Of a stretch of DNA of 28,794 bases, positions 1 through 28,794 are shown one piece after another (position 1 is the first letter of the stretch; each line of letters starts with the position of its first letter). The notes under the pieces were generated by a model. The model worked only from the letters and a program-made list of their open reading frames with translations, was not told where the DNA came from and ran no database searches. The position numbers were made by a program, and so were the translations under genes. This DNA comes from a virus: positions 1-28,794 of IMG/VR virus record IMGVR_UViG_3300047457_000717. One strand, written 5' to 3'.

Positions 1-1652
1 GGATAATGCGGAGCCGCGAAGATACACTCATCGCCAACCTGTAGACTCGCCGCACTCGATGTGCCAATGATAGACACATCCGCCGCCTGCGCACCACGAC
101 CAAATCGAGAATAGATAGGTACCGCAATAGACTGAAGCATTGCGGCTTCCGCAGACAACCAACTGTCTACGTTATGAATCATCCCATTAATCGTGAATGA
201 AATTTCACGACCCGCAAAAACCGTCGTGTCTCCGTTGTACCCAACCGCCTTTACCTCGTTAACCAACACTCCGTCAGTCGGCGTCGTACTCGTGACAACA
301 TCGGCAGACTTTGCGGTATAGTTTGTCGAGAACAGTTGCGCGTTAAGACTAACCGTAGAGATAGCCGTACTCTCATCAAGGTCGAATACTACATCCGACC
401 CGTTTGTCATATCCGCCGCCGTAATCGTCACGCTCGGCGTTCCCGTTCCTCTACCGCGAACGTCAATCAATTCGAGCGCACCACTCGCACTATTTACGCG
501 CGCCGAAATACCGAATGGCCCAAAAATAGTTTCTTCAAGAAACTTACTAATGACAGGCGGTTCCGTTAGACGAATCGCCAATCGCGTATCCGCACCGAGC
601 AACGCGCGAATCTGCGCAACCCACGCAGGGTCAGGTGCCGCAGGGTCCTTCCAATACATCCGCGCTTCATCCCAAATCTGCGTAACGATATCAACGGGAT
701 GAGCATCGATATACAACGGACACGCCGCCGACACATTGCGCGTGTACAGACTGACGTAGAGATACGAATTGTTTGCCGGAATTGTCGCGGGATTGCTCCA
801 CCACACCGACAACGGCCCATATCCGGGCGATGAATACGCCTGTCCGTACTCATTTGCCAATAGGATATGCGACGTCGGAACCGCATTGGTGTCCGTCGTT
901 CCTACATGAAGAACGATGTCGCCATACCCAACAGGATATCCAAGCGACGTCTCCGTAATGATGCGCGTACTCTTGGTGATTTCATCAACTACCGACTGAC
1001 GAACTAATTTCTTCCAATCGGAAACGACAGGTGAATTAGCGAAACTGTCATACCCGGAAACAAAATACAGCGCAATGTTTTGATTGCCGGGAACAGACTT
1101 GACTTGGTAATACCACCCGCCACGCGAAACAACTGGTCCCCACGTTTTCGTAACAGGTCCACCCGTCAGACATCCGCGCGTCGTAAACGTGCCGAGTGTA
1201 TTACCCGTGAAGATAGTCCTCGTTTGTTCCACGCGACGCGAATCGGCAATGCCAATTTCAAACGTCGCCGCAGAAACAAGACGAATAGCACTCACGTATC
1301 CCGCATACATCTGTGTCCACGACACGCCCTCATTGCCAGACACATACAGGTATGCGCGACGCGACAGCAACTGCTGTTGGTAATTCCCGTCCTCAAGTTT
1401 GTTCGTAAAAAACCGAACGGTGCCAGTCCCATCGGAACCAGTCACCGCATCGACAACCTGTACCGTATACGAACCAGACCGAATCGCGCCCGTAATTGCA
1501 TCAACTTCGTATCCGTCACCAGATGGCGGACTCGCAATGTACGTGTTCGCGCCAGTACGAAGCGACGTAATGGTAATTGCGTCCGTGGTCCCATTTGGAT
1601 TGGCAACCGTGGACGCATCACGAATGACGAGTTTGTAATTGAGTGATGGCAT
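1..1652 (-). CDS. Putative tail hub / baseplate-type protein, C-terminus cut by window edge
   Basis: An open minus-strand frame runs from an ATG at 1652 to the window edge, 550 codons with no stop, so the C-terminus is missing. The start overlaps the previous stop by one base (TAATG). The protein begins MPSLNYKLVIRDAST and is rich in beta-strand-like segments and Ser/Thr/Gly, with no predicted membrane segment. Its position directly after the tape measure and a short tail-tip protein is where siphoviruses encode the tail hub or tail-associated fibre-anchoring protein. That role is inferred from order and composition; I see no diagnostic motif. A larger receptor-binding or tail lysozyme protein remains possible. 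The frame is certain, the function moderate. Confidence 0.68.
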   Translation of the reverse strand, partial: MPSLNYKLVIRDASTVANPNGTTDAITITSLRTGANTYIASPPSGDGYEVDAITGAIRSGSYTVQVVDAVTGSDGTGTVRFFTNKLEDGNYQQQLLSRRAYLYVSGNEGVSWTQMYAGYVSAIRLVSAATFEIGIADSRRVEQTRTIFTGNTLGTFTTRGCLTGGPVTKTWGPVVSRGGWYYQVKSVPGNQNIALYFVSGYDSFANSPVVSDWKKLVRQSVVDEITKSTRIITETSLGYPVGYGDIVLHVGTTDTNAVPTSHILLANEYGQAYSSPGYGPLSVWWSNPATIPANNSYLYVSLYTRNVSAACPLYIDAHPVDIVTQIWDEARMYWKDPAAPDPAWVAQIRALLGADTRLAIRLTEPPVISKFLEETIFGPFGISARVNSASGALELIDVRGRGTGTPSVTITAADMTNGSDVVFDLDESTAISTVSLNAQLFSTNYTAKSADVVTSTTPTDGVLVNEVKAVGYNGDTTVFAGREISFTINGMIHNVDSWLSAEAAMLQSIAVPIYSRFGRGAQAADVSIIGTSSAASLQVGDECIFAAPHY

Positions 1653-2089
1653 TACGTCGTCGCGTATTCGCAGAGCATATCTGCGCCATTGAGGTTAATA
1701 ACCGAAACACTCAGCGTGTACGTCAACTCCACATTGTCCTGCATCGCTAACGTCACATTCCCGTCAGGTGCCAATACGCAATTCGTGTATGGTCCATTGA
1801 CTCCATCTCCAACATCAACGGACACGACGCCACCGTTTTGCAAATGTCGAAGCAACGCCAACGCCACATCGAGTGACGTATTCGGAATTTCTCGCATTTC
1901 AAACGACGCGCCGTAATCAATACGAAACGTAAACATCGTACGCGCGCCCGTTCCCAACGCTATTGCTGTATCGCCAACACGATTTGTAAACGGCAGATAG
2001 TTAGCAAACCGTGATGCCACTCCATCCGCGATGCCAGTATATCCGTTGGTTAGCGTCTGTGTTGGCGAACCCCATGTAATCTGAGCCAT
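1652..2089 (-). CDS. Minor tail / distal tail-type protein
   Basis: A 145-residue protein that starts MAQITWGSPTQTL, with the start codon overlapping the tape measure stop by one base. It is mostly predicted beta structure, with no transmembrane segment or signal peptide. The gene lies immediately after the tape measure and before the long hub-like protein, the usual place of the distal tail protein that caps the tail tube and links it to the hub. It is shorter than typical Dit proteins (about 200-250 residues), so it could equally be a small minor tail protein covering only the N-terminal ring domain. The assignment rests on synteny, not on a motif. Confidence 0.6.
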   Translation of the reverse strand: MAQITWGSPTQTLTNGYTGIADGVASRFANYLPFTNRVGDTAIALGTGARTMFTFRIDYGASFEMREIPNTSLDVALALLRHLQNGGVVSVDVGDGVNGPYTNCVLAPDGNVTLAMQDNVELTYTLSVSVINLNGADMLCEYATT

Positions 2090-3924
2090 TACACATTCCC
2101 CCGACGATTCGCCTTCATCATCAACTCTTGCATCGCGCGCTGTGCCGTCGGGTCATTTGGTCCGATAACCGTGATGTTCATCGGTGCAATCGGCGCAACA
2201 TTTGTTGTCGCGCCAGCCGCCGTTCCATTGAACACCATTCGCGTCGTAGGGATAGGCGCATTGATGGTAGACGTTACACCGCTTGCACCACCCGCAATCG
2301 TATTGCTTCCAACGCCCGACTTCCCACCGTTCGCATATGCAAATGCGAGCAACGCTCCCGCCGCCAACACCGCGCCAGCCCCATTACCCAACATCAACAG
2401 TCTTTTGATGTTTGCCATCAACGTGGCAAACACTCGTGTCTTAATTGCAAACTCGACCATAACATTGGCAATCTTTCCAACCAATGTTTGCGCCATAGTC
2501 TTCCACAACGTATCAATGCGCCCAGACTGAATGGCACCCATCAACCCACTTGCAATCCCATCTTCAAGCGACTCGGTAATACCAGTTGCCAATCTATTCT
2601 TTGCGCTTCCTTCCATCTGTGCAACCAAACCTTCAATACGATTTTTAAATGCCTCTGCCGTATCGCGATAGTATTGGTCGTCCATTTCCCTCAACGCATC
2701 CGCAAACGCTCTGTTCTCATCCTCCTGCGCTTGCATACGTTGATTAAAAAACTCCTGATTTATTTCCAACCATTGCTTATTGAAATCTTCCATCGCCTTC
2801 TTTTCATCTTCGAGTCGTTGCTTCATTGACTCATCAACGGTCATGCCCGTCGTATCGACGTCATCCGTAGGCAATCCAAGACCAGTTCCGCGCTCCTTCT
2901 TCTGCGGCGTTGCAAATCCCATCAACACTTGCGCGCGGAAATCAGCCATGCGTTCCTGTAACTGCGACAGGTTAGCATCGGACGCGTTGATGTCCGTATT
3001 GAAGGTGTCAAGAAACTGTCGAACCTTCTCGCCGACACCACCGGGAAGAAACGTTGCAAATGCGCCGCCAAGATTGATGGCAACGGCCCCTATCATTTGA
3101 AAGAATCGCGCAACCGCCAACGTCACCTGACCAATCAACGTTCCAACAGTCACCAAACCCTTAACAAAATTATCAAAGACATATGCAATAATCGGACGAA
3201 GGCCGCTCAACATACCAGCAATTTCCTTCAATCCGCGAATCATTGATTCGGATGTCTTGTCCTCCGCTTCAAACAGATTCAGGAACTCATTCTTGACCTG
3301 TTGAAGTGCGCCACCGAGTGTATTGGCATATGCCTCCGCCGAACCACCCGCCGCGCGTCGCAATGCATCCAACACCACCCGCTGTGCTTTGGCAATATCA
3401 TTTAGGCCAATAAACTTTTTAATAAGGTCTTCTTCGTCCTTACCAAGTTTAATTTTTGCGCGACCCAATGCGCCCACCGCATCCAATGGCGACTGCAACG
3501 CCTTGCCAACCAACAGGGCGGCACTCGACAAATCCATCTGCATTTTTTGCGCAAGGTCCAACACAACGGGAATGGTTTCTGCAAATACCGTTCGAACGTT
3601 GGTAAACCCAAGTAACATTGCCTGCGCGCTACGAATCGCTTCATCTCCGAACGCGGTGACCTTCATCAGCGCATCGGCCTGACGATTCAACGTTTCAATT
3701 GTTTGACCACTCACGCCATTGGTACTTTCTAGCGTGGTTATCAACTGCGCTTGCATCGCCTGTGCATCGGCAGTTTCACGCACCATTGTCGTGATTGCCT
3801 TAGTCAGACCACCAAACTGCGCAACCGTTAGTGCCACTTCTGCGCCCAACTTTTTGAGCGACGATTGAAGTGCCGCCGACCCTTCTTCCTTCAAGAGGAG
3901 TGACAACGCCATCACATCAGTCAT
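2089..3924 (-). CDS. Tail tape measure protein
   Basis: About 611 residues. It spans the tail lumen, sets tail length and is ejected ahead of the DNA. The N-terminal half is long, helical and coiled-coil-like with heptad patterns; hydrophobic stretches lie near the middle (around residues 250-300, LIGQVTLAVARFF and neighbours) and again toward the C-terminus (around 505-530, AGAVLAAGALLAFAYA), as expected for tape measures. An acidic, Gln-rich helical segment lies between them. I chose ATG 3924 because GAGGG sits 9 nt upstream; ATG 3933 would have that SD touching the start. The gene overlaps the chaperone frame upstream by 8 nt. By the family rule of about 1.5 angstrom per residue, the tail would be roughly 90 nm. 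Confidence 0.9.
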   Translation of the reverse strand: MTDVMALSLLLKEEGSAALQSSLKKLGAEVALTVAQFGGLTKAITTMVRETADAQAMQAQLITTLESTNGVSGQTIETLNRQADALMKVTAFGDEAIRSAQAMLLGFTNVRTVFAETIPVVLDLAQKMQMDLSSAALLVGKALQSPLDAVGALGRAKIKLGKDEEDLIKKFIGLNDIAKAQRVVLDALRRAAGGSAEAYANTLGGALQQVKNEFLNLFEAEDKTSESMIRGLKEIAGMLSGLRPIIAYVFDNFVKGLVTVGTLIGQVTLAVARFFQMIGAVAINLGGAFATFLPGGVGEKVRQFLDTFNTDINASDANLSQLQERMADFRAQVLMGFATPQKKERGTGLGLPTDDVDTTGMTVDESMKQRLEDEKKAMEDFNKQWLEINQEFFNQRMQAQEDENRAFADALREMDDQYYRDTAEAFKNRIEGLVAQMEGSAKNRLATGITESLEDGIASGLMGAIQSGRIDTLWKTMAQTLVGKIANVMVEFAIKTRVFATLMANIKRLLMLGNGAGAVLAAGALLAFAYANGGKSGVGSNTIAGGASGVTSTINAPIPTTRMVFNGTAAGATTNVAPIAPMNITVIGPNDPTAQRAMQELMMKANRRGNV

Positions 3925-4270: not shown

Positions 4271-4275
4271 CTCAA

Positions 4276-4629: not shown

Positions 4630-4643
4630 TGTCTCGGTGTAGG

Positions 4644-5219: not shown

Positions 5220-5255
5220 GTTAGTACCCTTGTGAAAAAGTGAAACGCTTTGCGC

Positions 5256-7706: not shown

Positions 7707-7709
7707 TGC

Positions 7710-7910: not shown

Positions 7911-7912
7911 AA

Positions 7913-8341: not shown

Positions 8342-8343
8342 TG

Positions 8344-11979: not shown

Positions 11980-11988
11980 GATGAGTAA

Positions 11989-12414: not shown

Positions 12415-12429
12415 TGCATCCCTCGGCGT

Positions 12430-13648: not shown

Positions 13649-13670
13649 GATTCGGAAAGGTTAAGGTGTA

Positions 13671-15017: not shown

Positions 15018-15027
15018 TGTTGTTGTC

Positions 15028-18752: not shown

Positions 18753-18792
18753 TACGCACTCGGCGAAGAGAGTTTACTGGTACTCTATATGC

Positions 18793-18821
18793 ACCATATG
18801 TAAAAACTCATAATAGCGCAA
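18793..18821 (-). promoter_or_regulatory. Candidate promoter for portal and structural genes
   Basis: In the 82-bp gap between large terminase and portal, the minus strand reads TTGCGC (18821-18816), a 17-nt spacer, then TATGGT (18798-18793). Around the -10 is a short inverted repeat (ATATG-GTG-CATAT), a possible operator. This is the only sizeable gap in the packaging-head chain, so it may allow separate late transcription. Confidence 0.5.
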
Positions 18822-18834
18822 CCCCCCTAACTTC

Positions 18835-20079: not shown

Positions 20080-20432
20080 AACTTAATCTCCTTGCCGCCA
20101 ATCACGATGGTCTGTGTACCGATAGTCTGCTCGTTACTCGTGACATCGAATCGCTCGACGTACCCTCTCGACTTCCCCTTGGTCTTTAGGTAGAAGATGG
20201 TCGCCGCCGTATTGTTGTCCGCGATTTGCGAATGCAACTTGGATTCCGCGAAATCCAACGCCATATCCGCGATACTCTCGACCTCTTCCCTATACGTCGC
20301 GTCCTTCTCCATCCACACGTAATGCGTCGCGCGCGAGACTCCCGCCATCTTACACGCCGTCGTCACAACGCCCAACGACTTTTCAAGGGCAGATATCATC
20401 GCCTTTTTTTTGTGTCTATTACCGTCCGACAT
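20076..20432 (-). CDS. Terminase small subunit (TerS)
   Basis: I place the start at ATG 20432, giving 118 residues (MSDGNRHKKKAMISALEKSLG...). The N-terminal basic part is followed by a helix-turn-helix (TTACKMAGVSRATHYVWMEKD, residues about 25-45) of the Terminase_2/HTH type that recognises the packaging site, then an oligomerisation helix (YREEVESIADMALDFAESKLHSQI) and a C-terminal region 'ATIFYLKTKGKSRGYVER' that is characteristic of the family. It lies directly upstream of TerL, and its stop overlaps the TerL start. The role is well supported. Confidence 0.9.
   Translation of the reverse strand: MSDGNRHKKKAMISALEKSLGVVTTACKMAGVSRATHYVWMEKDATYREEVESIADMALDFAESKLHSQIADNNTAATIFYLKTKGKSRGYVERFDVTSNEQTIGTQTIVIGGKEIKF
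20079..20093 (-). promoter_or_regulatory. Ribosome binding site setting an unusual CTG start for TerL
   Basis: Minus strand AAGGAG (20093-20088), 8 nt, then CTG (20079-20077), overlapping the TerS TGA stop as CTGA. The strong SD and the missing ATG/GTG/TTG in frame nearby make CTG the likely initiator. Confidence 0.65.
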
Positions 20433-20445
20433 ATTGCACCGCTTG

Positions 20446-21162
20446 TTATACGTTGAGTTCAATCGTGAAGGTATTCGCCTTCCGCTTTGCCTTACGAATC
20501 ATTCCCGGATACTGCTTAATAAGACGCTTAATTGCCTCGCGTTCTATTTCGACGGTACGGTAATCCTTGCATCCGCCCTCTGTTGTCCAATGCTCATTCT
20601 GCCAATGCATATAGCGGATGCCGTATATCCCGCCATACTTCTGCATATGTCTTAAACATATCTCATAATCTTCTTTGACGGGATATGACTCGTCGAAAAA
20701 GAATTCCCCATCGTTGACCATCCCCATGCACGACGCGGTGAGATACGTTCGCGTAAGGAACGGTTTGTAAGGATAGACGGAACGTAACGCCGCCTCCGTC
20801 TTTAATCCCCACATCTTATACCCCATCTGTACCGTAACGTCAAACGCCTTGACGAACTCATCGACCCAGAACCCCTCATCCTTGATTTGCTTCTGCTTCC
20901 CGTTGCGCATAAGCAACTTAGTATATCCCGTCGCCATCGCGTCATCGTCGAGAAAGACGACCCACTCATCTCCCGCATTGCGCAGAATCCAATTGCGCGT
21001 CGCCGTAATACCGCGCACCTCCTTCGGTACCGCGACCACGTTTCGCACGTAATTGTATTGGTGGACCTCCGACTCCGGCACGAAAAACGTTCCCGCATTT
21101 GGAACGATTTCGTTGGTCGTCGTACGCCCTGCCCTACTTTTGCTCGGTATTGCGATGAGCAT
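20446..21162 (-). CDS. Phage glycosyltransferase of the TET-associated (GT-A) type
   Basis: I place the start at ATG 21162, giving 238 residues (MLIAIPSKSRAGRTTT...). The N-terminal 'IPSKSRAGRTTT' loop, the strand 'VVFLDDDAMA' with an Asp-rich metal/nucleotide-sugar motif (71-74), and 'KEDYEICLRHMQKYGG' (about 163-178) match GT-A glycosyltransferases known from phages with modified DNA. In published genomics of base-hypermodification systems, such enzymes travel with ParB-like proteins, and a ParB-like gene overlaps this one by 29 nt. It therefore may glycosylate a modified base on phage DNA before packaging; glycosylation of virion or wall polymers is an alternative. No TET/JBP oxygenase is in the window. 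Confidence 0.75.
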   Translation of the reverse strand: MLIAIPSKSRAGRTTTNEIVPNAGTFFVPESEVHQYNYVRNVVAVPKEVRGITATRNWILRNAGDEWVVFLDDDAMATGYTKLLMRNGKQKQIKDEGFWVDEFVKAFDVTVQMGYKMWGLKTEAALRSVYPYKPFLTRTYLTASCMGMVNDGEFFFDESYPVKEDYEICLRHMQKYGGIYGIRYMHWQNEHWTTEGGCKDYRTVEIEREAIKRLIKQYPGMIRKAKRKANTFTIELNV

Positions 21163-21760
21163 CGTATCTCTCTTTGAAATCGTTCCACCACAGGACGCGC
21201 TCCAATCCCAACGCATCAAACGGGCTTCCCTCTTTATACCCGCCGCGCCTTACCATCTTCAGTTTTAGCGTCTCCTTAATCTCTTCCCACTCCAACGAAT
21301 TCGGGTCCGCCAATATGACGATGTATTCGCGCGGTGGTTCTAACTGTACCGATTGTTCCAACTCTAATTCTTCGCCCTCTTCCATCGTATCAATCGGGTC
21401 CGGTACATCTAATCCCCACTCCGCCAACTTCTCGACGTCCCACAAATTCGCCAACGCCTCCCACTCCCATTCTCCGTACCCGACGTTGTCCTTGATGATG
21501 AACTCGCGCTGTTGCTCCTCCGTCAACGACGACGCGCGCACGACGGGAACGTCCACCAATCCCGCCGCCTCACACGCGCGCAACCGCATGTTGCCACCCA
21601 ATACAACGCCGTCACCGTTCACCACCAACGGGCGCAGTTCCAACATTTCCGGGAACTCGCGAATCGACCGAACCAACTTTTGAAACGCTTCATCGCGAAT
21701 GATTCGCGGGTTTTCCGGGTTGGGCTTGATATCCCGAATAGGTACGCGCGTCCACTCCAT
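21134..21760 (-). CDS. ParB/Srx-fold protein, possible DNA-modification partner
   Basis: A 208-residue protein with start at ATG 21760, overlapping the upstream stop as TGATG (a GTG three bases earlier is also possible). The ParB/sulfiredoxin core contains 'IRDIKPNPENPRII' and the hallmark 'GGNMRLRACEAAG' (about 55-67), which binds nucleotide phosphate. Helices with many Trp (GYGEWEWEALANLWDVE) follow, then an acidic stretch and a C-terminal domain 'REYIVILADPNSLEWEEIKETL...ERVLWWNDFKERY' seen in phage ParB-like proteins. These act in phage genomes as NTP-dependent factors and have been linked to DNA base hypermodification loci with glycosyltransferases. The ATPase/CTPase activity here is inferred. 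It is not a chromosome-segregation ParB, as no ParA partner is present. Confidence 0.8.
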   Translation of the reverse strand: MEWTRVPIRDIKPNPENPRIIRDEAFQKLVRSIREFPEMLELRPLVVNGDGVVLGGNMRLRACEAAGLVDVPVVRASSLTEEQQREFIIKDNVGYGEWEWEALANLWDVEKLAEWGLDVPDPIDTMEEGEELELEQSVQLEPPREYIVILADPNSLEWEEIKETLKLKMVRRGGYKEGSPFDALGLERVLWWNDFKERYDAHRNTEQK

Positions 21761-21969
21761 CACGCTTTGTCCTTACCCTTCGCGGAAATAATACGCCGCG
21801 CCGTCTCGTTTTCCTCGCGCGTCACCACGCGCCGCTTCACCTTTGACAACTCCCGAACCATTGTCAGGATTTCATCGACGTACGTATACACCATGATAAC
21901 CAATCCCAACACCATCAAACCCAAAACAAAAAACACCGACGCGATAAGGTGCATTGCCTGACCTTGCAT
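21760..21969 (-). CDS. Small single-pass membrane protein
   Basis: I take the start as ATG 21969, giving 69 residues (MQGQAMHLIASVFFVLGLMVL...), because an extended upstream frame would overlap the zinc-finger gene; GAGAAC precedes it. A single transmembrane helix spans about residues 7-29, followed by a charged, Arg/Lys/Glu-rich cytosolic helix ending AKGKDKA. Such small proteins include holin-like or spanin-like lysis factors and inner-membrane modulators. No endolysin is next to it, so a lysis role is only a possibility. It is coupled downstream to the ParB-like gene. Confidence 0.65.
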   Translation of the reverse strand: MQGQAMHLIASVFFVLGLMVLGLVIMVYTYVDEILTMVRELSKVKRRVVTREENETARRIISAKGKDKA

Positions 21970-21971
21970 TG

Positions 21972-22166
21972 TTAGTTCTCCCAACGGGTGATGTAGGTAC
22001 CGTCTCTTTGTTTCCACTTTCCCCCCACAGGATACGCGCGCTCTCCATGACACGCCACGCGCAGATTGTGAATCTTCACCGCCTCGCGCGTTACGAATCC
22101 AATCTGGCACGTTAGACAATACGACTCACAATAACATGCCACGGGTGATTTCTTTTTAGCCATCAT
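21972..22166 (-). CDS. Cys-rich small protein, possible zinc finger
   Basis: A 64-residue basic protein (start at ATG 22166 or the adjacent ATG 22163), overlapping the end of the nuclease gene. It contains a Cys cluster (CYCESYCLTC) and a later 'HNLRVACH', a layout compatible with a single C2H2- or CCHC-type zinc site. The rest is Lys/Arg-rich, ending GGKWKQRDGTYITRWEN. I cannot name the family; a nucleic-acid-binding accessory role is plausible because it lies between the VRR-NUC nuclease and a small membrane gene. Function is unproven. Confidence 0.6.
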   Translation of the reverse strand: MMAKKKSPVACYCESYCLTCQIGFVTREAVKIHNLRVACHGERAYPVGGKWKQRDGTYITRWEN

Positions 22167-22572
22167 CAATTCCAAGGTGAGATGTCACGACGCGCCACGC
22201 ATCCGCCGCCGTCGTCACAATCTCGACCCTCCACCCTGCATTGCGCAATAGCACATGCCACCGCTTCTGGTTATCGCTCACGCGACCCTTCCCCGTCGGT
22301 GACTTGAATTCAATTGCCAATCCCACCGTGGTATTGTCGCTTGCCGGAGCAAAGCACAACCAATCCGGCACCCCCGCCTCCACGCCCTCCGCTTTCATCA
22401 ACGCCGCTTCGCGCGCCGAACGCCTCCCCCCATTCGGCACCGCACACGCCGCGCGCTCTCTCGTTCGCGGGTCCGTCCGCCAACGACGTATAAACAAACG
22501 CTGTTCTATCGCTTCCAGATGTTGTGGCTTGCGACGAATTGCCATCTTATACAACGACGGTTTATTTGCCAC
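22156..22572 (-). CDS. VRR-NUC domain nuclease, GTG start
   Basis: A 138-residue VRR-NUC (PD-(D/E)XK-type) nuclease, structure-selective in known phage and cellular members (FAN1-like). Visible motifs: an N-terminal Glu helix (EAIEQRLFIRRW), 'NGGRRSAREAALMKAEGVEAGVPDWLCF' around residues 47-73 with the conserved Pro-Asp, then 'LAIEFKSPTGKGRVSDNQ' (about 85-102) with the Glu-x-Lys metal site and Gln. Start at GTG 22572 follows a GAGGAGG ribosome site by 6 nt; a GTG one codon upstream is possible. The enzyme likely processes branched or replication-fork DNA. Placement within the middle gene block, before packaging, fits resolution of DNA before encapsidation. Confidence 0.88.
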   Translation of the reverse strand: MANKPSLYKMAIRRKPQHLEAIEQRLFIRRWRTDPRTRERAACAVPNGGRRSAREAALMKAEGVEAGVPDWLCFAPASDNTTVGLAIEFKSPTGKGRVSDNQKRWHVLLRNAGWRVEIVTTAADAWRVVTSHLGIDDG

Positions 22573-23023
22573 CACGTTCCTCCTCTAATCGTTTGCGCGC
22601 GTAATACTTCGCCCATCGCGCCTCTCTCGCTTTCTTTGCAATCTCCTTTACGCGCTCCGGTCCCAAACTTCGAACGCGCGCCGCCGCTCCTAACGGTCCG
22701 CCAATCTTACCCGCCTGCGCGAGCGTCATCTTCTCCGCAGGCGGTTGCATTCCCTTTTCCTGCCATCGCCGTTTGCGCGCGCCCTCCGCCACCTTATCCA
22801 AATTGTTTTTTTGCCACCGCATACAATCCTTGCGCCTGCGAATCTTCTTGCACTCTTCGCAATAGAACGTCACGCCGACCGTGCCATACACAGGCCGTGG
22901 GCAATACCGACAGACGCCACGCTTCCGACGCTCACATTGCGCACAATGAAACGTGACGCGCCCAATCCTATCGACGCGCTCGACCACGACGCCGCGACAC
23001 GTTGACAACTCGCACCGCATCAT
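22562..23023 (-). CDS. Zinc-ribbon protein with basic C-terminal helix
   Basis: A 153-residue protein starting MMRCELSTC with ATGA coupling to the gene upstream. The first 60 residues hold four Cys-x(2-4)-Cys pairs (CELSTC, CAQC, CRYC, CEEC), consistent with two zinc ribbons. Next comes a strongly basic stretch (KKIRRRKDCMRW...ARKRRWQEKG), then 'GKIGGPLGAAARVRSLGPERVKEIAKKAREARW', a motif repeated in bacterial small proteins of the 'LTPEERxEIARKAAxARW' type. The combination suggests DNA or RNA binding. I do not recognise a function. It overlaps the nuclease gene and may be a partner. Confidence 0.68.
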   Translation of the reverse strand: MMRCELSTCRGVVVERVDRIGRVTFHCAQCERRKRGVCRYCPRPVYGTVGVTFYCEECKKIRRRKDCMRWQKNNLDKVAEGARKRRWQEKGMQPPAEKMTLAQAGKIGGPLGAAARVRSLGPERVKEIAKKAREARWAKYYARKRLEEERGGK

Positions 23024-23199
23024 TCCGCGACTACCTCCCGACCGCCGAACGCATGATGCATGACGGTGTGCGCCATCAACCGCATCCGTTCATGGTGCAA
23101 ACGAACCAACTGTTGCGACACCTTGATAATCTCATCATCGAGCGCGTTCAAACTTTTCTCTGCGTGGTCGTCCATCAAGAGCGGAAAGTTGAGCGTCAT
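23020..23199 (-). CDS. Small helical protein of 59 residues
   Basis: A short frame, ATG 23199 to TGA 23020, fills the space between two accepted genes with a 1-nt gap upstream and an ATGA overlap downstream, so it is part of the chain. It encodes MTLNFPLLMDDHAEKSLNAL and continues as one long helix rich in His, Met and Glu (LDDEIIKVSQQLVRLHHERMRLMAHTVMHHAF), possibly a coiled-coil dimer. No Cys or membrane segment. Function is unknown, but the perfect coupling supports it being translated. Confidence 0.6.
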   Translation of the reverse strand: MTLNFPLLMDDHAEKSLNALDDEIIKVSQQLVRLHHERMRLMAHTVMHHAFGGREVVAE

Positions 23200-23200
23200 G

Positions 23201-23464
23201 TTACATCACTCCCCATTGTTTGTGGTTGTCGCCATACATCGCCGTCGCCAAGACCGATGCACACTCCATGCAATCCGACACGTGTTCCGTGAACGTCCAT
23301 CGCTTCAATACTTCACCGCAAGGCATGTCGATGTAATCGAAAACAAATCGCCCCACATCCGGCATCGTTTCGCGCGCCGCCTGATGCATCGCCTCGCATC
23401 GCTCCGCATGACGCAACACCCCATCATGCATCACACCCTCGCAATACGCGCAGACAATATTCAT
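23201..23464 (-). CDS. Cys/His-rich small protein, possible zinc finger
   Basis: An 87-residue protein with start at ATG 23464, overlapping the HTH gene stop as ATGA. It begins MNIVCAYCEGVMHDGVLRHAERC, a CxxC-x(n)-HxxxC arrangement that would bind zinc, followed by helices and further Cys (YIDMPCGEVLK, HVSDCMECAS). Longer frames would run into the neighbouring gene. Several proteins in this block share such Cys pairs. I cannot assign a role beyond a likely nucleic-acid or protein contact. Confidence 0.62.
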   Translation of the reverse strand: MNIVCAYCEGVMHDGVLRHAERCEAMHQAARETMPDVGRFVFDYIDMPCGEVLKRWTFTEHVSDCMECASVLATAMYGDNHKQWGVM

Positions 23465-23670
23465 GTCGGAATCTCCCGCCGCAATTCGTCGCGCACCTTT
23501 CGCACCGCCTCCAACGCGCGCGGTCCCATCTGTCGACGTCCCGCGCACCAATGCAACACCGTCTGTGGGCAATATCGAATCGCCAACGCCAACCGTGCCT
23601 TTGCCATTGACAGCCCACGCTCATCTGGCATGCGCAACAGTTCCAACACCTCCGCCAATTCTTTCTGCAT
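23461..23670 (-). CDS. Small HTH protein, Cro/CI type
   Basis: A 69-residue protein, MQKELAEVLELLRMPDERGL... The segment 'MAKARLALAIRYCPQTVLHWCAGRRQMGPRALEAVRKV' (about residues 22-58) has the length and pattern of a helix-turn-helix of the Cro/CI or XRE family, with a recognition helix after 'CPQTVLHWCAG' and a dimer-type C-terminal helix. It is coupled at both ends in the operon (TAATG, ATGA). It probably regulates mid or late transcription; target sites are not identifiable here. Confidence 0.68.
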   Translation of the reverse strand: MQKELAEVLELLRMPDERGLSMAKARLALAIRYCPQTVLHWCAGRRQMGPRALEAVRKVRDELRREIPT

Positions 23671-23897
23671 TAGACCTTAACTCCCTCTTTGTAAGAGTAC
23701 TTGGTAATACACACCCGACCAACTGAGTACCAAAACATCGCGCGGAACGTATACTCGAATCGTGACAATTCTCTATGGTCTCTTGCGTTGTCCTCCGCCA
23801 ACTTGCTGTAATAATCCGCGCGCGCTTCCATCTTGAGTGCGCCATCATACGCGCCGTGTCGTTCCGCCATGAGTCGAGCCAATCGTGTGATGTTCAT
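23670..23897 (-). CDS. Hypothetical protein, head of mid-gene chain
   Basis: A 75-residue protein (MNITRLARLMAERHGAYDG...), helical with a charged N-terminal half and an aromatic C-terminal half (FRAMFWYSVGRVCITKYSYKEGV). It is the first gene after the hairpin gap at 23.9 kb and overlaps the HTH gene by TAATG. The C-terminal segment could be a short amphipathic or membrane-associating helix, but I see no clear transmembrane length. The family is unknown to me. Confidence 0.6.
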   Translation of the reverse strand: MNITRLARLMAERHGAYDGALKMEARADYYSKLAEDNARDHRELSRFEYTFRAMFWYSVGRVCITKYSYKEGVKV

Positions 23898-23924
23898 TGG
23901 TTAGTCCGAAGAGGTGATGGTAGA

Positions 23925-23941
23925 GGCCGCACCATGCGGCC
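23925..23941 (-). promoter_or_regulatory. Intercistronic hairpin, copy 1
   Basis: Arms 23925-23931 and 23935-23941 form a perfect 7-bp stem (GGCCGCA with its complement) around a 3-nt loop, in the gap between two genes. The plus-strand flank GCGGCCCGT recurs in two other gaps. No U-run follows on either strand, so it does not look like a simple terminator. Confidence 0.5.
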
Positions 23942-23959
23942 CGTGGGTATGGCGTTCGA

Positions 23960-24349
23960 TTAGTCCACGAATTCAGCTAGGCGCGCAATCACTTGTCGGA
24001 CGTAATCTTTTTGATACTCCATCGCCGTACGCAACGATACGGGGGCCGGAAGGTCATCGTGAAAACCGATGCACTCATCGGGGAAGCGAGTAACGAATGC
24101 TTCCGCCGCTGGCCCTGACTGAAACAGCACCGCGCTTTCCAGCATTGCCGTATTCGAATAGCCAGCGCGCGTAACAAACCGGGGCACCTTGCCGGAATAC
24201 TTCAACACCCACGCGCTCCCCATCGCTTCGCGATTCTCTTTTTCAAAGTCGGACAGGTCTTCCAGATTCTTGCGCATTGCGATAACAAGGTCGCGCATCG
24301 CTTCCTGCGAAGAGACGTGCATTGCGAACGGCTTGGCTAGGTTGGTCAT
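23960..24349 (-). CDS. Hypothetical protein of early/mid region
   Basis: A 129-residue protein with start at ATG 24349 (MTNLAKPFAMHVSSQE...), 9 nt behind a GGAG ribosome site. It is helical at the N-terminus (AMRDLVIAMRKNLEDLSDFEKENREAM), with strands after it and a C-terminal helix (MEYQKDYVRQVIARLAEF). No membrane segment or metal motif. I do not recognise it. The ribosome leader CCGGAGAATACAGCA is shared with the gene before it, suggesting a common expression level. Function unknown. Confidence 0.62.
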   Translation of the reverse strand: MTNLAKPFAMHVSSQEAMRDLVIAMRKNLEDLSDFEKENREAMGSAWVLKYSGKVPRFVTRAGYSNTAMLESAVLFQSGPAAEAFVTRFPDECIGFHDDLPAPVSLRTAMEYQKDYVRQVIARLAEFVD

Positions 24350-24375
24350 TGCTGTATTCTCCGGTGTGTGTGAGA

Positions 24376-24390
24376 GCCGCACCGCGCGGC
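24376..24390 (-). promoter_or_regulatory. Intercistronic hairpin, copy 2
   Basis: Arms 24376-24380 and 24386-24390 give a 5-bp GC stem with a 5-nt loop; together with the flank GCGGCCCGT it repeats the pattern of the hairpin at 23925. It lies between stop and ribosome site of two early genes. Confidence 0.45.
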
Positions 24391-24409
24391 CCGTTGCGTT
24401 GTTGGTTTA

Positions 24410-24742
24410 TTAGAAGTTGAAGTCGTAATACTTGCGCGGCTCATTCGCCAACACAAACCGCCGCTTGCCTACGCCGTACCAGCGACCATCCTTGTGAAGC
24501 CGGATGCGCTCTACCGTTCCGTTCTCATCCGACGTAATGACCCACTTCTGCGACCCCTGATTCGTGCAATGACCAGAGAAACCACCGGGAACGAAATTCG
24601 GCTTGTAATCCGCCGCCATCTCCGCCTTCATCTCCCGCACTTCGATGCACTTGTCGCTGATGTAGCGAACCACTTCGTACGGGTCCGTGTCGCTGTACCC
24701 GCTGTGCATCGCATACTGAAACGTCTCGGTCGTGGTCTGCAT
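24410..24742 (-). CDS. Conserved small protein with Trp/Arg-rich domain
   Basis: A 110-residue protein with start at ATG 24742 (MQTTTETFQYAMHSGYSDTD...), behind CGGAGAATACAACA. The middle (PYEVVRYISDKCIEVREMKAEM), 'PGGFSGHCTNQGSQKWVI' and the end 'RWYGVGKRRFVLANEPRKYYDFNF' resemble a family I have seen in bacterial and phage genomes without a known function. It is beta-rich, with a Cys and a His in the central segment. It has its own promoter of the early type at 24782-24809. A role in host takeover is possible only by position. Confidence 0.68.
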   Translation of the reverse strand: MQTTTETFQYAMHSGYSDTDPYEVVRYISDKCIEVREMKAEMAADYKPNFVPGGFSGHCTNQGSQKWVITSDENGTVERIRLHKDGRWYGVGKRRFVLANEPRKYYDFNF

Positions 24743-24781
24743 TGTTGTATTCTCCGTTGAGTGGTTGACCCTACACAGCTT

Positions 24782-24809
24782 AAAGTATCTACCTTCGTTA
24801 CTACCGCAA
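24782..24809 (-). promoter_or_regulatory. Early promoter, repeated type, copy A
   Basis: Minus strand TTGCGG (24809-24804), 16-nt spacer, TACTTT (24787-24782). The same block with ACTTG ahead, GTAG-rich spacer and CTGTGT just after the -10 occurs twice more (25046 and 26094). It sits about 40 bp before the ATG at 24742. Confidence 0.72.
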
Positions 24810-24818
24810 GTCTGATTT

Positions 24819-24998
24819 TTACGCGCGCCCACTCTTCTGCAAAAACATGCCAAGTTCCATCAGCGCGATTTCTTTCGAGTCAACTTTCCAAACCAACACT
24901 TCGCTTGTATCGACACAGGTGATGTAAAACTTCTCGGTGCCTTCGTTCTTGCTCAGCTTGTAGGTGAAGCCGTCATACTTGAAAGTCTGGGCGCGCAT
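24819..24998 (-). CDS. Small early protein of 59 residues
   Basis: A short frame from ATG 24998 to TAA 24819 encodes MRAQTFKYDGFTYKLSKNEG and continues with a Tyr/Phe/Cys-containing beta region (FYITCVDTSEVLVW) and a helix (KEIALMELGMFLQKSGRA). A purine-rich CCGGGGGA site precedes it, and its own early promoter of the repeated type lies at 25046-25074, so I regard it as a real gene. No domain is recognised. Small early phage proteins with private promoters often target host enzymes; nothing here identifies a target. Confidence 0.65.
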   Translation of the reverse strand: MRAQTFKYDGFTYKLSKNEGTEKFYITCVDTSEVLVWKVDSKEIALMELGMFLQKSGRA

Positions 24999-25045
24999 CG
25001 TCGTGTCCCCCGGTGAATTGCGTGAGCGTCATTGCTCACACAGGA

Positions 25046-25074
25046 AGAGTACCTACCTACGTACCTACGCACAA
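25046..25074 (-). promoter_or_regulatory. Early promoter, repeated type, copy B
   Basis: Minus strand TTGTGC (25074-25069), 17-nt spacer consisting of GTAG/GTACGTAG repeats, TACTCT (25051-25046), then CTGTGT. It is positioned before the 59-residue gene at 24998. Confidence 0.72.
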
Positions 25075-25078
25075 GTCT

Positions 25079-25095
25079 AAAAAAAAGATTTTTTT
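25079..25095. terminator. A/T-tract palindrome, possible terminator
   Basis: Eight A then GA then seven T form a self-complementary block right upstream of the copy B promoter. On the minus strand it gives a U-run after ArdC; terminator function for leftward readthrough is plausible but the stem is A-U only. Confidence 0.35.
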
Positions 25096-25101
25096 CGGTT
25101 T

Positions 25102-25171
25102 CGTAAGTCGTTGATTTACAAGGGGTTAGCCTCCACCCTCCCCGTAAGTTGCTAAAAATCAACAACTTACG
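25102..25171. repeat. Overlapping inverted and direct repeats after the ArdC gene
   Basis: CGTAAGTCGTTGATTT (25102-25117) pairs with AAATCAACAACTTACG (25156-25171) with one mismatch; CGTAAGTTG at 25143-25151 is a direct copy of the left arm start and can pair with CAACTTACG (25163-25171) instead. Two mutually exclusive hairpins are possible. The right arm overlaps the end of the ArdC gene. Confidence 0.6.
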
Positions 25172-26045
25172 CCGCCGCCTCGACGGGGGCCAACCGCTCC
25201 CCCGTCACGTAATCCGCCGCCGCCTGAGCGAGTGACGCCGCGCGCGCCAGCATTTCAGGATTCGCGCGACATGCCGCCGCCCAATTCTTCATATACGCCG
25301 CCGATTGGCTCACCATCTCCATGCCGTACGTCGAGGAAAGAAACGCCGCGCCCAACTCCGCGACCAATTCTTCGAAGGCGTAATCGGGGTTGCCGAACTT
25401 TCCCGTCAGCTTGCGATTGCACCGCGACTCCGCGCCCGTCCAATGCGTAAGTTCGTGAAACAACGTGCCGTAATATTCGCTCGTCCCCTTGAACTCGCCA
25501 CGCTCCGGCATGTTGATGACGTCACGCGCCGGCGAGTACCACGCGCCGCCGTTCGTCTCATTGATGACGACCGCGCCCGTCGCCGCGACCATCGCGTCCG
25601 CATCCTCGACCGCATCGACCTTGTACGTCGTCGTGTCGCCGCTCTTGAGTTTCGCGAGCGCACCCTCCTGCACTTCCTCCAACTGTTCCACGTTAAACAC
25701 GATAAAGAACTTGGCGAGAAAGTAGTACTCCTTCTTCGTGACGTCCTCCGGGTTCCTCTTCTCTACCTTTGACATGTAATACACCGCTGTCCCCTTCTCC
25801 CCCTTTCGCACCATGCACCCGCTCGCCTGCGCCTGCTTAAACGTCACCCAGCCACTCTGCTTGTATCCCTTCTGCATCGCCGCGAACCAAAGAGCGAAGA
25901 CATTGCCACCCGAATACCGCCGCCCCGACGACGCATTGTGCGGCATCCCCGTATCCTTAAACGGGCGCACCCACGGCGCGTTGCCCTTCTCCATCTCGTC
26001 AACAATCGCCCCGAATACCTTCGTGTATACGTCGTTGTTCGCCAT
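25167..26045 (-). CDS. ArdC-like antirestriction protein
   Basis: A 292-residue protein that combines an N-terminal ssDNA-binding ArdC domain (from MANNDVYTKVFGAIVDEMEKG; 'WVTFKQAQASGCMVRKGEKG' around 66-85) with a C-terminal zincin-like metallopeptidase. The metal site is HELTH at 197-201 with a downstream Glu (AFEELVAELGAAF, near 223-233). This is the architecture of ArdC from conjugative plasmids, whose binding to incoming DNA blocks type I restriction; phage copies are likely to act early after injection. It has its own early promoter (26094-26122) and a GGAG ribosome site. The protease activity is inferred from motif. Confidence 0.9.
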   Translation of the reverse strand: MANNDVYTKVFGAIVDEMEKGNAPWVRPFKDTGMPHNASSGRRYSGGNVFALWFAAMQKGYKQSGWVTFKQAQASGCMVRKGEKGTAVYYMSKVEKRNPEDVTKKEYYFLAKFFIVFNVEQLEEVQEGALAKLKSGDTTTYKVDAVEDADAMVAATGAVVINETNGGAWYSPARDVINMPERGEFKGTSEYYGTLFHELTHWTGAESRCNRKLTGKFGNPDYAFEELVAELGAAFLSSTYGMEMVSQSAAYMKNWAAACRANPEMLARAASLAQAAADYVTGERLAPVEAAA

Positions 26046-26093
26046 GTTCTCATCTCCGGTGAGCGCGACGGGTTCATTCCCGCCGACACAGCA

Positions 26094-26122
26094 AGAGTAC
26101 CTACGTCTGTAGATACCCGCAA
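26094..26122 (-). promoter_or_regulatory. Early promoter, repeated type, copy C
   Basis: Minus strand TTGCGG (26122-26117), 17-nt spacer, TACTCT (26099-26094), then CTGTGT, about 50 bp before the ArdC start. It matches copies A and B over roughly 35 bp. Confidence 0.72.
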
Positions 26123-26230
26123 GTCCCCCCCGTTTTTCCTCTGTCGGCGAATTTAGGACGCCCTAACTTACAGCCACGCCCCCGCCATATCCGGTGGTAG
26201 TTCGCGGTTGACGTTCTTACGCGACTACCC

Positions 26231-26302
26231 AACGGATTCGAACCACTCAAACCGCAATCCAGCAGAGGGCGTCGTCTGCAATACCGCGCGGGGCGAGCGC
26301 GG
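26231..26302 (-). other. T-arm-like sequence with two hairpins (possible tRNA relic)
   Basis: The minus strand carries GGTTCGAATCC with a weak 5-bp stem (26231-26247), an 8-nt-loop stem GCAGA/TCTGC (26262-26279) and a GC stem CCGCGC/GCGCGG (26284-26302). The B-box match is complete, but no acceptor stem pairs, so a working tRNA is not supported. Confidence 0.35.
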
Positions 26303-26414
26303 ATTTCCTCGACGAGTTACCCTTCGATACTGCTGTGCTACCGTCCATCTCCCCAATACGCGAACACCACCACCGACCACGTTGTAGGCTGACAGAGCGT
26401 GGGTTTGTTTTTGT

Positions 26415-26467
26415 CGTACGCGATTGAGCACGGTTAGGATTGATGACGTACGCGCGGGAACGTACGC
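26415..26467. repeat. Three CGTACGC repeats
   Basis: CGTACGC occurs at 26415-26421, 26447-26453 and 26461-26467 within 53 bp. CGTACG is itself palindromic. Regular short copies could be protein-binding sites (operator or iteron); spacing is uneven. Confidence 0.45.
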
Positions 26468-26495
26468 AACGGGGAAACCGAGATTAAGCCCCGTT
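26468..26495. repeat. Hairpin AACGGGG / CCCCGTT
   Basis: A 7-bp perfect stem with a 14-nt loop next to the CGTACGC repeats and the tRNA-like fold. Possible boundary or terminator-like element of the structured block; no U-run follows. Confidence 0.4.
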
Positions 26496-26503
26496 CACTC
26501 TAC

Positions 26504-26569
26504 CGCTACCGCCGGAATCGAACCGACGCGCCACTCCCCGTAGTCGTTGTGTGACGTTCCAACGTAGCG
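26504..26569 (-). ncRNA. Candidate tRNA-like three-way junction RNA
   Basis: On the minus strand CGCTAC (26569-26564) pairs with GTAGCG (26509-26504) to close a junction containing a 6-bp hairpin (26556-26551 with 26534-26529, 16-nt loop) and a perfect T-arm (GTCGG TTCGATT CCGGC, 26527-26511). The layout, acceptor-like stem plus T-arm without a D-arm, recalls tRNA-like domains. A canonical tRNA is ruled out by the 66-nt length and absent D-arm and anticodon arm. Confidence 0.4.
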
Positions 26570-26581
26570 CAGAAAACGAAG

Positions 26582-26645
26582 TGGCCCCGACAGAGCACTC
26601 TGGGTCAACCCACCGGAGAAAGTGAGCAGAGTGATATCGGGGCCA
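26582..26645. repeat. Large nested inverted repeat
   Basis: A 9-bp outer stem (TGGCCCCGA 26582-26590 with TCGGGGCCA 26637-26645) encloses a 7-bp inner stem (CACTCTG 26596-26602 with CAGAGTG 26627-26633), separated by an internal loop. The stems are perfect and stable, and no coding frame explains them. Confidence 0.6.
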
Positions 26646-26724
26646 TCTGTCTTCGATTGGCGTGAGGTTGACCGCCTCACCCTTACAACATCGCACCAAA
26701 CTCCTAACTTCGCAACGTAATCAC

Positions 26725-27132
26725 CTATGTACCGCCATCACTACGCAACGCCTTCGTGCGAAAGAACTCCGCGTGTTCCGGAAAATCTTTCATGAACAAC
26801 CGCGCGTAATACGGCGTGTAATTGTTGCTCATCTTGAATTCTTCACCCGCCGTCTCAATCTCGGTATGCCACCGGATACGCTCGAAGATAGCCTTGCTTG
26901 AGTAATGCTTGTGGCCCCTTCGAATGACATCGAACGTGAATTGCTTAAACAACTCATACACGTGCGGATTCATACGATGCCACCGCCACCATTGCCGCTT
27001 GATGGTATCGCTCTCTTCCGCCTCCTTCACCTGTTGTACCGCCACCGCAAACAACCCATCGGTGAACGGCATCTCCGCGCGCATCGAATACTTGCGCTGT
27101 ATCTCGCGCTCCACTTCGTCGCCGTACGTCAT
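26725..27132 (-). CDS. Conserved phage protein of unknown function
   Basis: A 135-residue protein with ATGA overlap onto the gene before it. The C-terminal 75 residues (MNPHVYELFKQFTFDVIRRG, then HYSSKAIFERIRWHTEIET and YTPYYARLFMKDFPEHAEFF) are recognisable as a conserved phage family with many aromatic and charged residues, usually encoded in early or recombination regions. It is helical with no metal cluster or membrane segment. I cannot assign a function. It sits next to the ssDNA-binding gene, so a replication or recombination link is possible. Confidence 0.7.
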   Translation of the reverse strand: MTYGDEVEREIQRKYSMRAEMPFTDGLFAVAVQQVKEAEESDTIKRQWWRWHRMNPHVYELFKQFTFDVIRRGHKHYSSKAIFERIRWHTEIETAGEEFKMSNNYTPYYARLFMKDFPEHAEFFRTKALRSDGGT

Positions 27133-27377
27133 GCCTCCGCCCCCTCATCACTACCCAACGCCGCCGCCTCACAGATATGGCACGGTTGCGCAAGGTAATG
27201 TTGTTGGCAGAACTCGAACCACTCTTCATCCGTCTCGTATTTCTTCTTCGTCCGCTCTTCTTCCGCCAAATACCGACCGCGCCACTCACCAAGTTTCCCC
27301 GTCACCGGATGACGCATCGGGAACGGCTCGAACGATTGACGAATAATTTTCTCCCACCACTCTTCTTTGCGTTCCAT
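27129..27377 (-). CDS. Small charged early protein
   Basis: An 82-residue protein with many Glu, Lys and Trp (MERKEEWWEKIIRQSFEPFP...), a probable helical body and a CxxC (PCHICEAAALG) near the C-terminus. GGAG precedes the ATG, and the stop overlaps the next gene as ATGA. I do not recognise it. The CxxC could bind metal with another protein. It is grouped with the ssDNA-binding protein and is likely early. Confidence 0.6.
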   Translation of the reverse strand: MERKEEWWEKIIRQSFEPFPMRHPVTGKLGEWRGRYLAEEERTKKKYETDEEWFEFCQQHYLAQPCHICEAAALGSDEGAEA

Positions 27378-27404
27378 TGGTTCGCTCCGGTGTTGAGTCG
27401 TTGG

Positions 27405-28052
27405 TTAGAACGGGAGGTCGTCGTCGGTCGGTGGCGGGAAATTGCTATAGTCCGGCTCCTCATACGATGACGGCGGCATGATTCGCTTTCCGCTTGGCTC
27501 CGGCATCTTCACGACAGGTGCCTTTTCTACGCTTTTCACCACACCATCCAATCCATCCGGCTGTATTCCCTTATCCTTCCACGAAATCCAGATGGTCGCC
27601 GTCGCCGCCTGCACCGCGCTGTAATCATTGATACCCAAATCCCTTGCGACCGCCTTAAACAAATCGCAATATGCGCGCGCCACCACCTTACGTCGCGCCT
27701 CGCTCCCCGTCTCAACATTGCCACCAATGATTTCCGTCGGCACTTCCATTCGCTTGCCAGACGACGGCCTCTGTGGTACCGCCGGAGCGATGTTCCAATA
27801 CGGCGCGGCTCCGGGTCGCTTGTTGTTTGCCGTACGCGAGAACGTCAACGAATTCCCGACGGCATCCGTATACGAAAACTCCTCGCCGAAAATTCTCTTC
27901 AACTGCATATCCGCCGATGTCTGCGGAAGGTAAAGCGTGTCGGTACCATCGCTGAATAGCACCTGTTCCCCATACGTTCCCGTGTTTCGCTCACACGTTT
28001 TGATATGCATCGTGTGAGTGTCGCCAACGTTGGGTAGCTTGATAATTGCCAT
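27405..28052 (-). CDS. Single-stranded DNA-binding protein (SSB-type acidic tail)
   Basis: A 215-residue protein. The N-terminal part (MAIIKLPNVGDTHTMHIKTCERNTGTYGEQVLF..., about residues 1-75) has the strand pattern of an OB fold with an aromatic 'EFSYTDAVGNSLTF' region. A Pro-rich linker follows. The helical part 'GSEARRKVVARAYCDLFKAVARDLGINDY' is unusual for SSB and may be dimerising. The C-terminus ends PPTDDDLPF, the acidic-tip form by which SSBs recruit partners (as EcSSB DDDIPF). I infer a phage replication or recombination SSB; the diverged OB core means the call depends heavily on the tail. AGGAGAGG precedes the ATG. Confidence 0.8.
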   Translation of the reverse strand: MAIIKLPNVGDTHTMHIKTCERNTGTYGEQVLFSDGTDTLYLPQTSADMQLKRIFGEEFSYTDAVGNSLTFSRTANNKRPGAAPYWNIAPAVPQRPSSGKRMEVPTEIIGGNVETGSEARRKVVARAYCDLFKAVARDLGINDYSAVQAATATIWISWKDKGIQPDGLDGVVKSVEKAPVVKMPEPSGKRIMPPSSYEEPDYSNFPPPTDDDLPF

Positions 28053-28090
28053 TGCTTGCCTCTCCTACTTGCGTGTGAACTACAATCACC

Positions 28091-28108
28091 GACCGCCGAT
28101 GTGCGGTC
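28091..28108 (-). promoter_or_regulatory. Intercistronic hairpin, copy 3
   Basis: Arms 28091-28096 and 28103-28108 (GACCGC with its complement) around a 6-nt loop, in the gap before the SSB gene. With the flank GCGGTCCGTG it matches the hairpins at 23925 and 24376. Confidence 0.45.
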
Positions 28109-28118
28109 CGTGTCCTAC

Positions 28119-28325
28119 TTATTCGTGGGATGCCGTACCGAGCCAGTTATAACACCCGCGACACACCATCTCCGTATCCGCCACAATATCCCCGTTGTAT
28201 CGATACGCCTTTTCGTATCGATACAAACGCACCGACTCCCCATCACGACAGTAATAGCACTCGCCGTACGTATCGCCGTACGTACCGACGCCAACAGATG
28301 CACCATTCTCTGTAGTACGTTGCAT
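28119..28325 (-). CDS. Small zinc-finger protein, first leftward early gene
   Basis: A 68-residue protein (MQRTTENGASVGVGTYGDTYG...) with two CxxC pairs, CYYC and CRGC, separated by about 28 residues, a typical small zinc-ribbon. The rest contains Arg/Tyr-rich strands (SVRLYRYEKAYRYNG). CCGGAG lies 7 nt upstream. As the first leftward gene from the control region, it may act early on host transcription or phage DNA, but no direct target can be deduced. Confidence 0.65.
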   Translation of the reverse strand: MQRTTENGASVGVGTYGDTYGECYYCRDGESVRLYRYEKAYRYNGDIVADTEMVCRGCYNWLGTASHE

Positions 28326-28350
28326 GAACGCTCCGGTGAAGTTGACCTGA

Positions 28351-28367
28351 TACCCTTATGGTATCGC
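28351..28367. promoter_or_regulatory. Operator-like inverted repeat
   Basis: GATACC-CTTAT-GGTATC in the divergent region, just upstream of the leftward zinc-finger gene. A 6-bp arm with 5-nt spacer is a typical size for a Cro/CI-family dimer site. Confidence 0.45.
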
Positions 28368-28454
28368 CCCCAAAATGATACGTCCGCAACAATTCCGCAA
28401 GCCCCAATTTACCCTTGACAAAAGTTCCCTACGTAACTACGTCCCCCACGGTAC

Positions 28455-28483
28455 TTGCGCTTTACTCGAGAAAGCAGTATGAT
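28455..28483 (+). promoter_or_regulatory. Rightward promoter of the HTH gene
   Basis: TTGCGC (28455-28460), a 17-nt spacer and TATGAT (28478-28483), about 27 bp before the TTG start at 28510. A TTGACA at 28415-28420 lacks a matching -10 at 17 nt. TTGCGC is shared with the portal promoter, and TTGCGG with two of the three early promoters. Confidence 0.55.
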
Positions 28484-28509
28484 GGGCTACACCTTACACG
28501 GAGGTTGTA

Positions 28510-28764
28510 TTGCCACTCGGCAGTAAAACATTGCGCACGGCAATCAAGGTTTACGGTGGTCCCGTAAACGGATTTGCCGCCGACGTATTAGGTCGGTCGC
28601 GCGTCAGCGTATGGCGATGGATAAACGAACGCGAAGCAATACCGCTTGTCGTCATTCATCGCCTCAAGATGTATCTGCAATTTCCTCATCCTACACACGC
28701 CGAACTTCTCGCGCGTGGCACCACCACCGAACCACCCATCACCGAAGAGGTATTAGATGACTGA
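28510..28764 (+). CDS. Cro/CI-like HTH regulator, TTG start
   Basis: An 84-residue DNA-binding protein, the only complete rightward gene. TTG at 28510 has GGAGG 5 nt upstream. The segment 'FAADVLGRSRVSVWRWINEREAIPLVVIHRLKMYL' (about residues 22-56) is a helix-turn-helix of the Cro/CI type, with 'RSRVSVWRWINE' as the turn and recognition helix; the rest is a short acidic tail. Placement at the divergent junction makes it the likely switch between lytic and non-lytic programmes, or a Cro-like repressor of early genes. Absence of a visible integrase leaves lysogeny uncertain. The stop overlaps the next rightward gene. Confidence 0.82.
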   Translation: MPLGSKTLRTAIKVYGGPVNGFAADVLGRSRVSVWRWINEREAIPLVVIHRLKMYLQFPHPTHAELLARGTTTEPPITEEVLDD

Positions 28765-28794
28765 CACCGGAGCCACCTTTACCGTGAGCGATAT
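28757..28794 (+). CDS. Start of next rightward gene, truncated by window edge
   Basis: ATG 28757 overlaps the HTH stop and lies 6 nt after AGAGG; the frame MTDTGATFTVSD continues open to the window end (12 codons). Too short to identify. Confidence 0.55.
   Translation, partial: MTDTGATFTVSD

Follow-up and report, generated by a model that had tools for sequence, protein, structure and literature searches.

Why does a tailed-phage genome fragment lack one tetramer from end to end? The fragment, a linear record of 28,794 bases (IMGVR_UViG_3300047457_000717), is referred to here as the window, meaning the whole stretch of DNA that was analysed. A sequence-only reading had claimed that GATC is missing from all of it, had attributed this to strong selection against the site, probably by host restriction enzymes of the MboI/Sau3AI type, and had offered a methyl-directed nuclease as an alternative.

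GATC is absent throughout the window

A script count found no GATC on either strand of the window (positions 1–28794), where a Markov model based on the counts of GAT, ATC and AT predicted 116.0, confirming the claim of total absence. Comparison of all 256 tetramers with their Markov expectations placed GATC lowest (z = −10.8), followed by GGCC (32 observed, 78 expected). The coding sequence gave the same result: in 200 synonymous shuffles of 34 genes (26.5 kb coding), with protein and codon usage preserved, GATC occurred 107.1 ± 6.9 times and never fewer than 89, against the observed zero. By the definition of site elimination as an observed/expected ratio below 0.1 with at least 15 sites expected, the window is a clear case. 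Words one letter away from GATC were enriched, as seen in the observed and expected counts for GATG (126/56), CATC (300/214) and GATA (110/74). AGCT, GGCC, CCGG, CTAG and CATG also fell below synonymous expectation, yet were present. The earlier statement that other palindromes do occur was therefore correct for the three that it named (GGCC, AGCT at 17 and CATG at 55 copies), all of which are nonetheless under-represented. The hexamers TCCGGA, ACGCGT and CTCGAG were rare, with one copy each. Base counts were C 9294, T 6573, G 6514 and A 6413; the strands are thus asymmetric in C and G, and the minus strand carries nearly all genes.

The genes discussed here all lie on the minus strand. An HK97-like major capsid protein (13671–15068; PF05065, E = 5.5e-21) served as the query for relatives, and a fusion of portal and Mu F-like head domains (15834–18752; PF04860, E = 9.7e-46; PF04233, E = 6.4e-9) as the tree marker. 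These are followed by the terminase large subunit, TerL (18835–20004; PF17289, E = 4.3e-18), the terminase small subunit (20076–20462; phrog_4044, E = 1.7e-5; phrog_4102, E = 1.8e-5), a TAGT-type glycosyltransferase (20446–21219; PF20691, E = 1.2e-11; phrog_842, E = 7.6e-19) and a ParB_N-domain protein without a methyltransferase part (21134–21763; PF02195; phrog_498, E = 1.3e-26). Further along are a VRR-NUC nuclease-like protein (22156–22575; PF08774, E = 1.7e-10) and an ArdC-like antirestriction protein (25167–26045; PF08401, E = 1.8e-32; PF18818, E = 1.6e-37; phrog_7245, E = 2.3e-75). Also identified were a protease-like gene, an S74-domain tail fibre and a tape measure. The methyltransferase profiles PF01555, PF02086 and PF00145 matched nothing in the window, which also has no tRNA genes. 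A DNA similarity search of an annotated phage collection with the window produced no match, and the phages found with the portal protein were all distant (<60% identical).

GATC sites were lost through silent changes

Codon alignments of six window genes with nine relatives were used to locate GATC sites in the relatives at which both encoded amino acids are identical in the window. None of the 151 such sites was kept. The window reads GATT at 59 of them, GACC at 37 and CATC at 26, with other words at the rest. Control words under the same treatment were kept in 36–81% of cases (GATG 105/130, TCGA 84/157, ACGT 81/123, GACC 62/114 and CATC 28/77). Since the amino acids were conserved throughout, selection must have acted on the DNA word itself: GATC sites were lost through silent changes, independently of the protein sequence.

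The purge is shared by the clade and reaches further lineages

Among close relatives (TerL 91–98% identical), GATC counts ranged from 0 to 4 over 4–17 kb. A larger relative (G005, 36.3 kb) has a single GATC where 159 were expected, and its aligned DNA is only 79% identical to that of the window. On a tree of the portal sequences (91 rows), rows free of GATC clustered, as did CATG-depleted rows, and at least four changes were required to account for the GATC purge. The purge is therefore common to the window's clade and extends to further lineages. The earlier claim of strong selection against GATC holds, given the silent loss at conserved residues, the shuffles and the persistence of the purge across a diverged clade.

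High-GC relatives whose capsids are 74–79% identical to the window's have normal GATC. This level of capsid identity is seen with G044 and G047 despite a genome GC of 55% in the window and 65% in these relatives. The same phages bear on one possible cause, namely that the phage encodes its own GATC-cutting nuclease, directed at competing or host DNA, and therefore needs a site-free genome. The VRR-NUC gene at 22156–22575 could supply such an activity, but it is found equally in relatives with normal GATC (G044, G047 and G051), and we regard this explanation as unlikely in the extreme.

Relatives have lost other palindromes

Avoidance within the family is not confined to GATC. CATG is wholly or nearly lost in many relatives (among them L185, L189, L192, L170, L008, L120, G499 and G501), most of which hold GATC at about half of expectation; the counts were 0/101 in both G499 and G501, and 1/99 in G066. 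In one sub-group (L129, L132, L134 and L135) AATT is absent where 11 to 27 copies were expected (0/27 in L132), with GATC mildly reduced and CATG normal. More distant terminase relatives (L014–L080), many with a GC of 45–50%, have almost none of ACGT, AGCT or CATG, in lineage-specific combinations.

Only one bacterial bin contained a relative. This phage (L120, GATC 3/103 and CATG 0/91) was found by genome scan as a contig in a Burkholderiales MAG; the portions of the contig that were read contain genes of phage type without an obvious bacterial flank, and the link is weak evidence for a host. Three short contig pieces of the bin showed normal or near-normal GATC. When 399 genomes of that order were compared with positions 8800–28794 of the window, no convincing CRISPR spacer or prophage match was seen; the matches were to the L120 phage contig of the MAG and were otherwise short and weak.

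These data bear on whether mismatch repair could be responsible. Host MutH, acting in methyl-directed mismatch repair, might nick unmethylated GATC in fast-replicating phage DNA, and has been proposed as one reason for the GATC-free genome of phiX174 (PMC5014478). Similar proposals exist for other phages of enterobacteria. A phage GATC methyltransferase would give protection from MutH too, so that an association of GATC with such genes is compatible with this mechanism. Dam/MutH systems are mainly known in some gammaproteobacteria. No match to PF02086, the Dam family, was found in the Burkholderiales MAG, a bin that may be incomplete and is weakly linked to the phages. The loss of CATG or AATT in relatives is as complete as that of GATC in the window, which is beyond what MutH can explain. 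Because the avoided palindrome switches among relatives, Type II restriction fits the data and MutH alone does not; the purging of CATG or AATT suggests restriction enzymes over mismatch repair, and MutH is improbable as the cause.

In the affected groups, GATC persists mainly alongside a phage methyltransferase gene

The region between the ParB_N gene and the terminase is a variable slot, with the VRR-NUC gene as a conserved flank. In the window's clade the slot holds the TAGT glycosyltransferase. In other relatives it contains a GNAT-ABC protein (L008 and L009), Mom (L010, G044 and others) or a glycosyltransferase, GT2, with or without a methyltransferase, MT1. Some relatives carry the ParB_N domain fused to a DNA methyltransferase, as in the 604-aa fusion of L190. 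Interchangeable genes were noted here in the window (20446–21763) and in L008, L009, L010, L109, L158 and L170; the kinds seen are TAGT, GNAT-ABC, Mom, N6/N4 methyltransferase, ParB–methyltransferase fusion and GT2, several of them of DNA-modification type. TAGT denotes a TET-associated glycosyltransferase, and a general scan of the window's proteins revealed no TET-like or hydroxymethylase gene among them.

The methyltransferase profiles PF01555, PF02086 and PF00145 were then applied to the large contigs. None of the seven purged contigs of 26–36 kb (G000, G005, G052, G054, G057, G059 and G060) carries a recognised methyltransferase. The CATG-depleted set, which was picked after the data had been seen and within which the lineages are related, includes six contigs of 23 kb or longer that keep GATC, and every one of these has a methyltransferase: PF01555 was matched in G053 (where MT1 lies at 1988–3340 on the minus strand), G066, G500, G501 and G505, and PF00145, marking a C5 enzyme, in G499. 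The closest contrast is between G500, which has GT2 with MT1 and 120 GATC sites, and G052 and G054, which have GT2 without MT1 and no GATC at all. These genomes share 84–85% DNA identity over 28 kb, and the approximately 100 aligned GATC sites are all altered, while 46–62% of control words, CATG excepted, persist. CATG differs too (54 in G500, against 20 in G052 and 12 in G054), so the shift is not wholly confined to GATC. CTCGAG occurs ten times in G500 and is absent from both G052 and G054. Eight contigs with TerL 93–97% identical to that of G052 all carry MT1 and all have GATC.

Methyltransferase carriers show GATC at an observed/expected ratio of about 0.5, and either residual selection or a slow return after relaxation could account for this. 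Comparison of MT1 and MT2 with protein families and solved structures identified general N6/N4 relatives (CcrM, DpnA and others), with no indication of specificity; that the phage methyltransferases act on GATC is our inference. The pattern of gene content and word counts suggests that purging and methylating may be two alternative escapes from one defence.

This association also bears on the methyl-directed nuclease that the sequence-only reading had offered. A nuclease of the DpnI type, present in some hosts, would cut GATC that had acquired its methyl groups during earlier growth in a Dam-positive host. Loss of the site would then be favoured in either state, and this would fit total loss in phages that alternate hosts. 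Provided that the phage methyltransferases act on GATC, however, carriers would fare worse, because self-methylated GATC would be harmful, yet the carriers are the GATC-bearing relatives. We therefore consider a DpnI-type nuclease very unlikely.

Relaxation of GATC avoidance is thus strongly associated with phage methyltransferases, but with exceptions and few independent contrasts. Three incomplete contigs (L163 and L221, 22 kb; L230, 16 kb) keep GATC with no recognised methyltransferase. Against the main pattern, L283 and L302 have MT1-like genes yet show 2 of 26 expected GATC sites each in about 5 kb. The portal tree provides only two well-supported independent pairs, too few for significance, although the direction is nearly always as predicted. 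A lineage-level Fisher test gave 8/9 versus 0/6 (p = 0.0014) on our own grouping of lineages and with Mom counted as relief. Mom was also considered as a sole relief. In the affected groups the one contig with Mom by itself is L010 (8 kb), a further exception, and this single case is not decisive.

The exceptions leave some room for a different account of the split, in which purged and unpurged phages met different hosts' restriction systems, the methyltransferases serve some other end and their association with GATC reflects shared ancestry. Such an account would still allow restriction to have caused the purge. In its favour are the small number (two) of well-supported independent contrasts, the GATC-keeping contigs L163/L221 and L230, and the nearly GATC-free L283 and L302. 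Against it, the contrast holds between phages whose TerL are 93–97% identical, and the large contigs divide six of six against none of seven in methyltransferase carriage. We view different hosts as a possible but rather doubtful explanation of the split.

A restriction enzyme as the probable agent

GATC is the site cut by MboI, DpnII and Sau3AI. Restriction of the MboI/Sau3AI type, as first proposed for the window, fits best, with other Type II palindromes purged in relatives and GATC in the affected groups persisting mainly where there is a phage methyltransferase. The agent is, by inference, a restriction enzyme of Type II. We think it likely that the family shows classical avoidance, its members evading a GATC-cutting Type II system by losing the site or else by methylating their DNA. 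Under this model, the hosts would carry an enzyme of the DpnII/MboI/Sau3AI kind that cuts unmodified GATC. Since no methyltransferase that could protect the phage DNA is recognised in the window's lineage, each GATC would be lethal or nearly lethal, and selection would have replaced every one, mostly by silent changes to GATT, GACC or CATC. Related phages under similar pressure would carry a DNA methyltransferase gene beside the terminase or elsewhere, and hold GATC at around half of expectation.

A bolder version, to which we give even chances, is that the choice between purge and methyltransferase flips repeatedly as one gene enters or leaves the variable slot next to the terminase, with some 100 sites per genome then purged or returning. 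If this is true, the words that close relatives avoid would reveal which sequence an uncharacterised phage methyltransferase recognises. Total site loss may be read as a fossil of the restriction enzymes that an uncultured phage has met. With sister phages that share about 85% of their DNA sequence yet differ in a methyltransferase and approximately 100 GATC sites, it becomes testable how costly and how fast each escape route is, and likewise what the specificity of the uncharacterised methyltransferases is.

Comparison with known systems

Elimination of GATC in phages is already known. Rusinov et al. 2018 (PMC6286503) found site elimination complete or nearly so in about one-tenth of viral genomes, with GATC under-represented in each of the 46 phages that infect hosts encoding the enzyme, whereas coliphages that hydroxymethylate their DNA showed no avoidance. 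The window resembles the non-temperate dsDNA phages of that study in the full loss of a short Type II palindrome, GATC being a consistently avoided site there; in that study avoidance vanishes where phage DNA is modified. The host enzymes were known in that work, whereas here such an enzyme is predicted for the hosts; relief there came by cytosine hydroxymethylation in coliphages, whereas the putative relief here goes with methyltransferase genes in close relatives.

Staphylococcus phage K, with a 140 kb genome that lacks GATC and so avoids Sau3A (reviewed in PMC6532042), shares with the window the complete absence of the site and the same presumed enzyme class. It infects another host genus, and the review describes no contrast with GATC-bearing sister phages. 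GATC is wholly absent from phiX174 (5.4 kb; PMC5014478) as well, but this is a small ssDNA phage of E. coli for which the effect on mismatch repair has been measured, and the window's relatives purge further palindromes. A literature search for purge and methyltransferase as alternatives within one family, itself a weak test, found no report. What the present analysis adds to phage K, phiX174 and the survey of Rusinov et al. is a family in which purging of GATC and carriage of a methyltransferase appear to be alternatives between close relatives.
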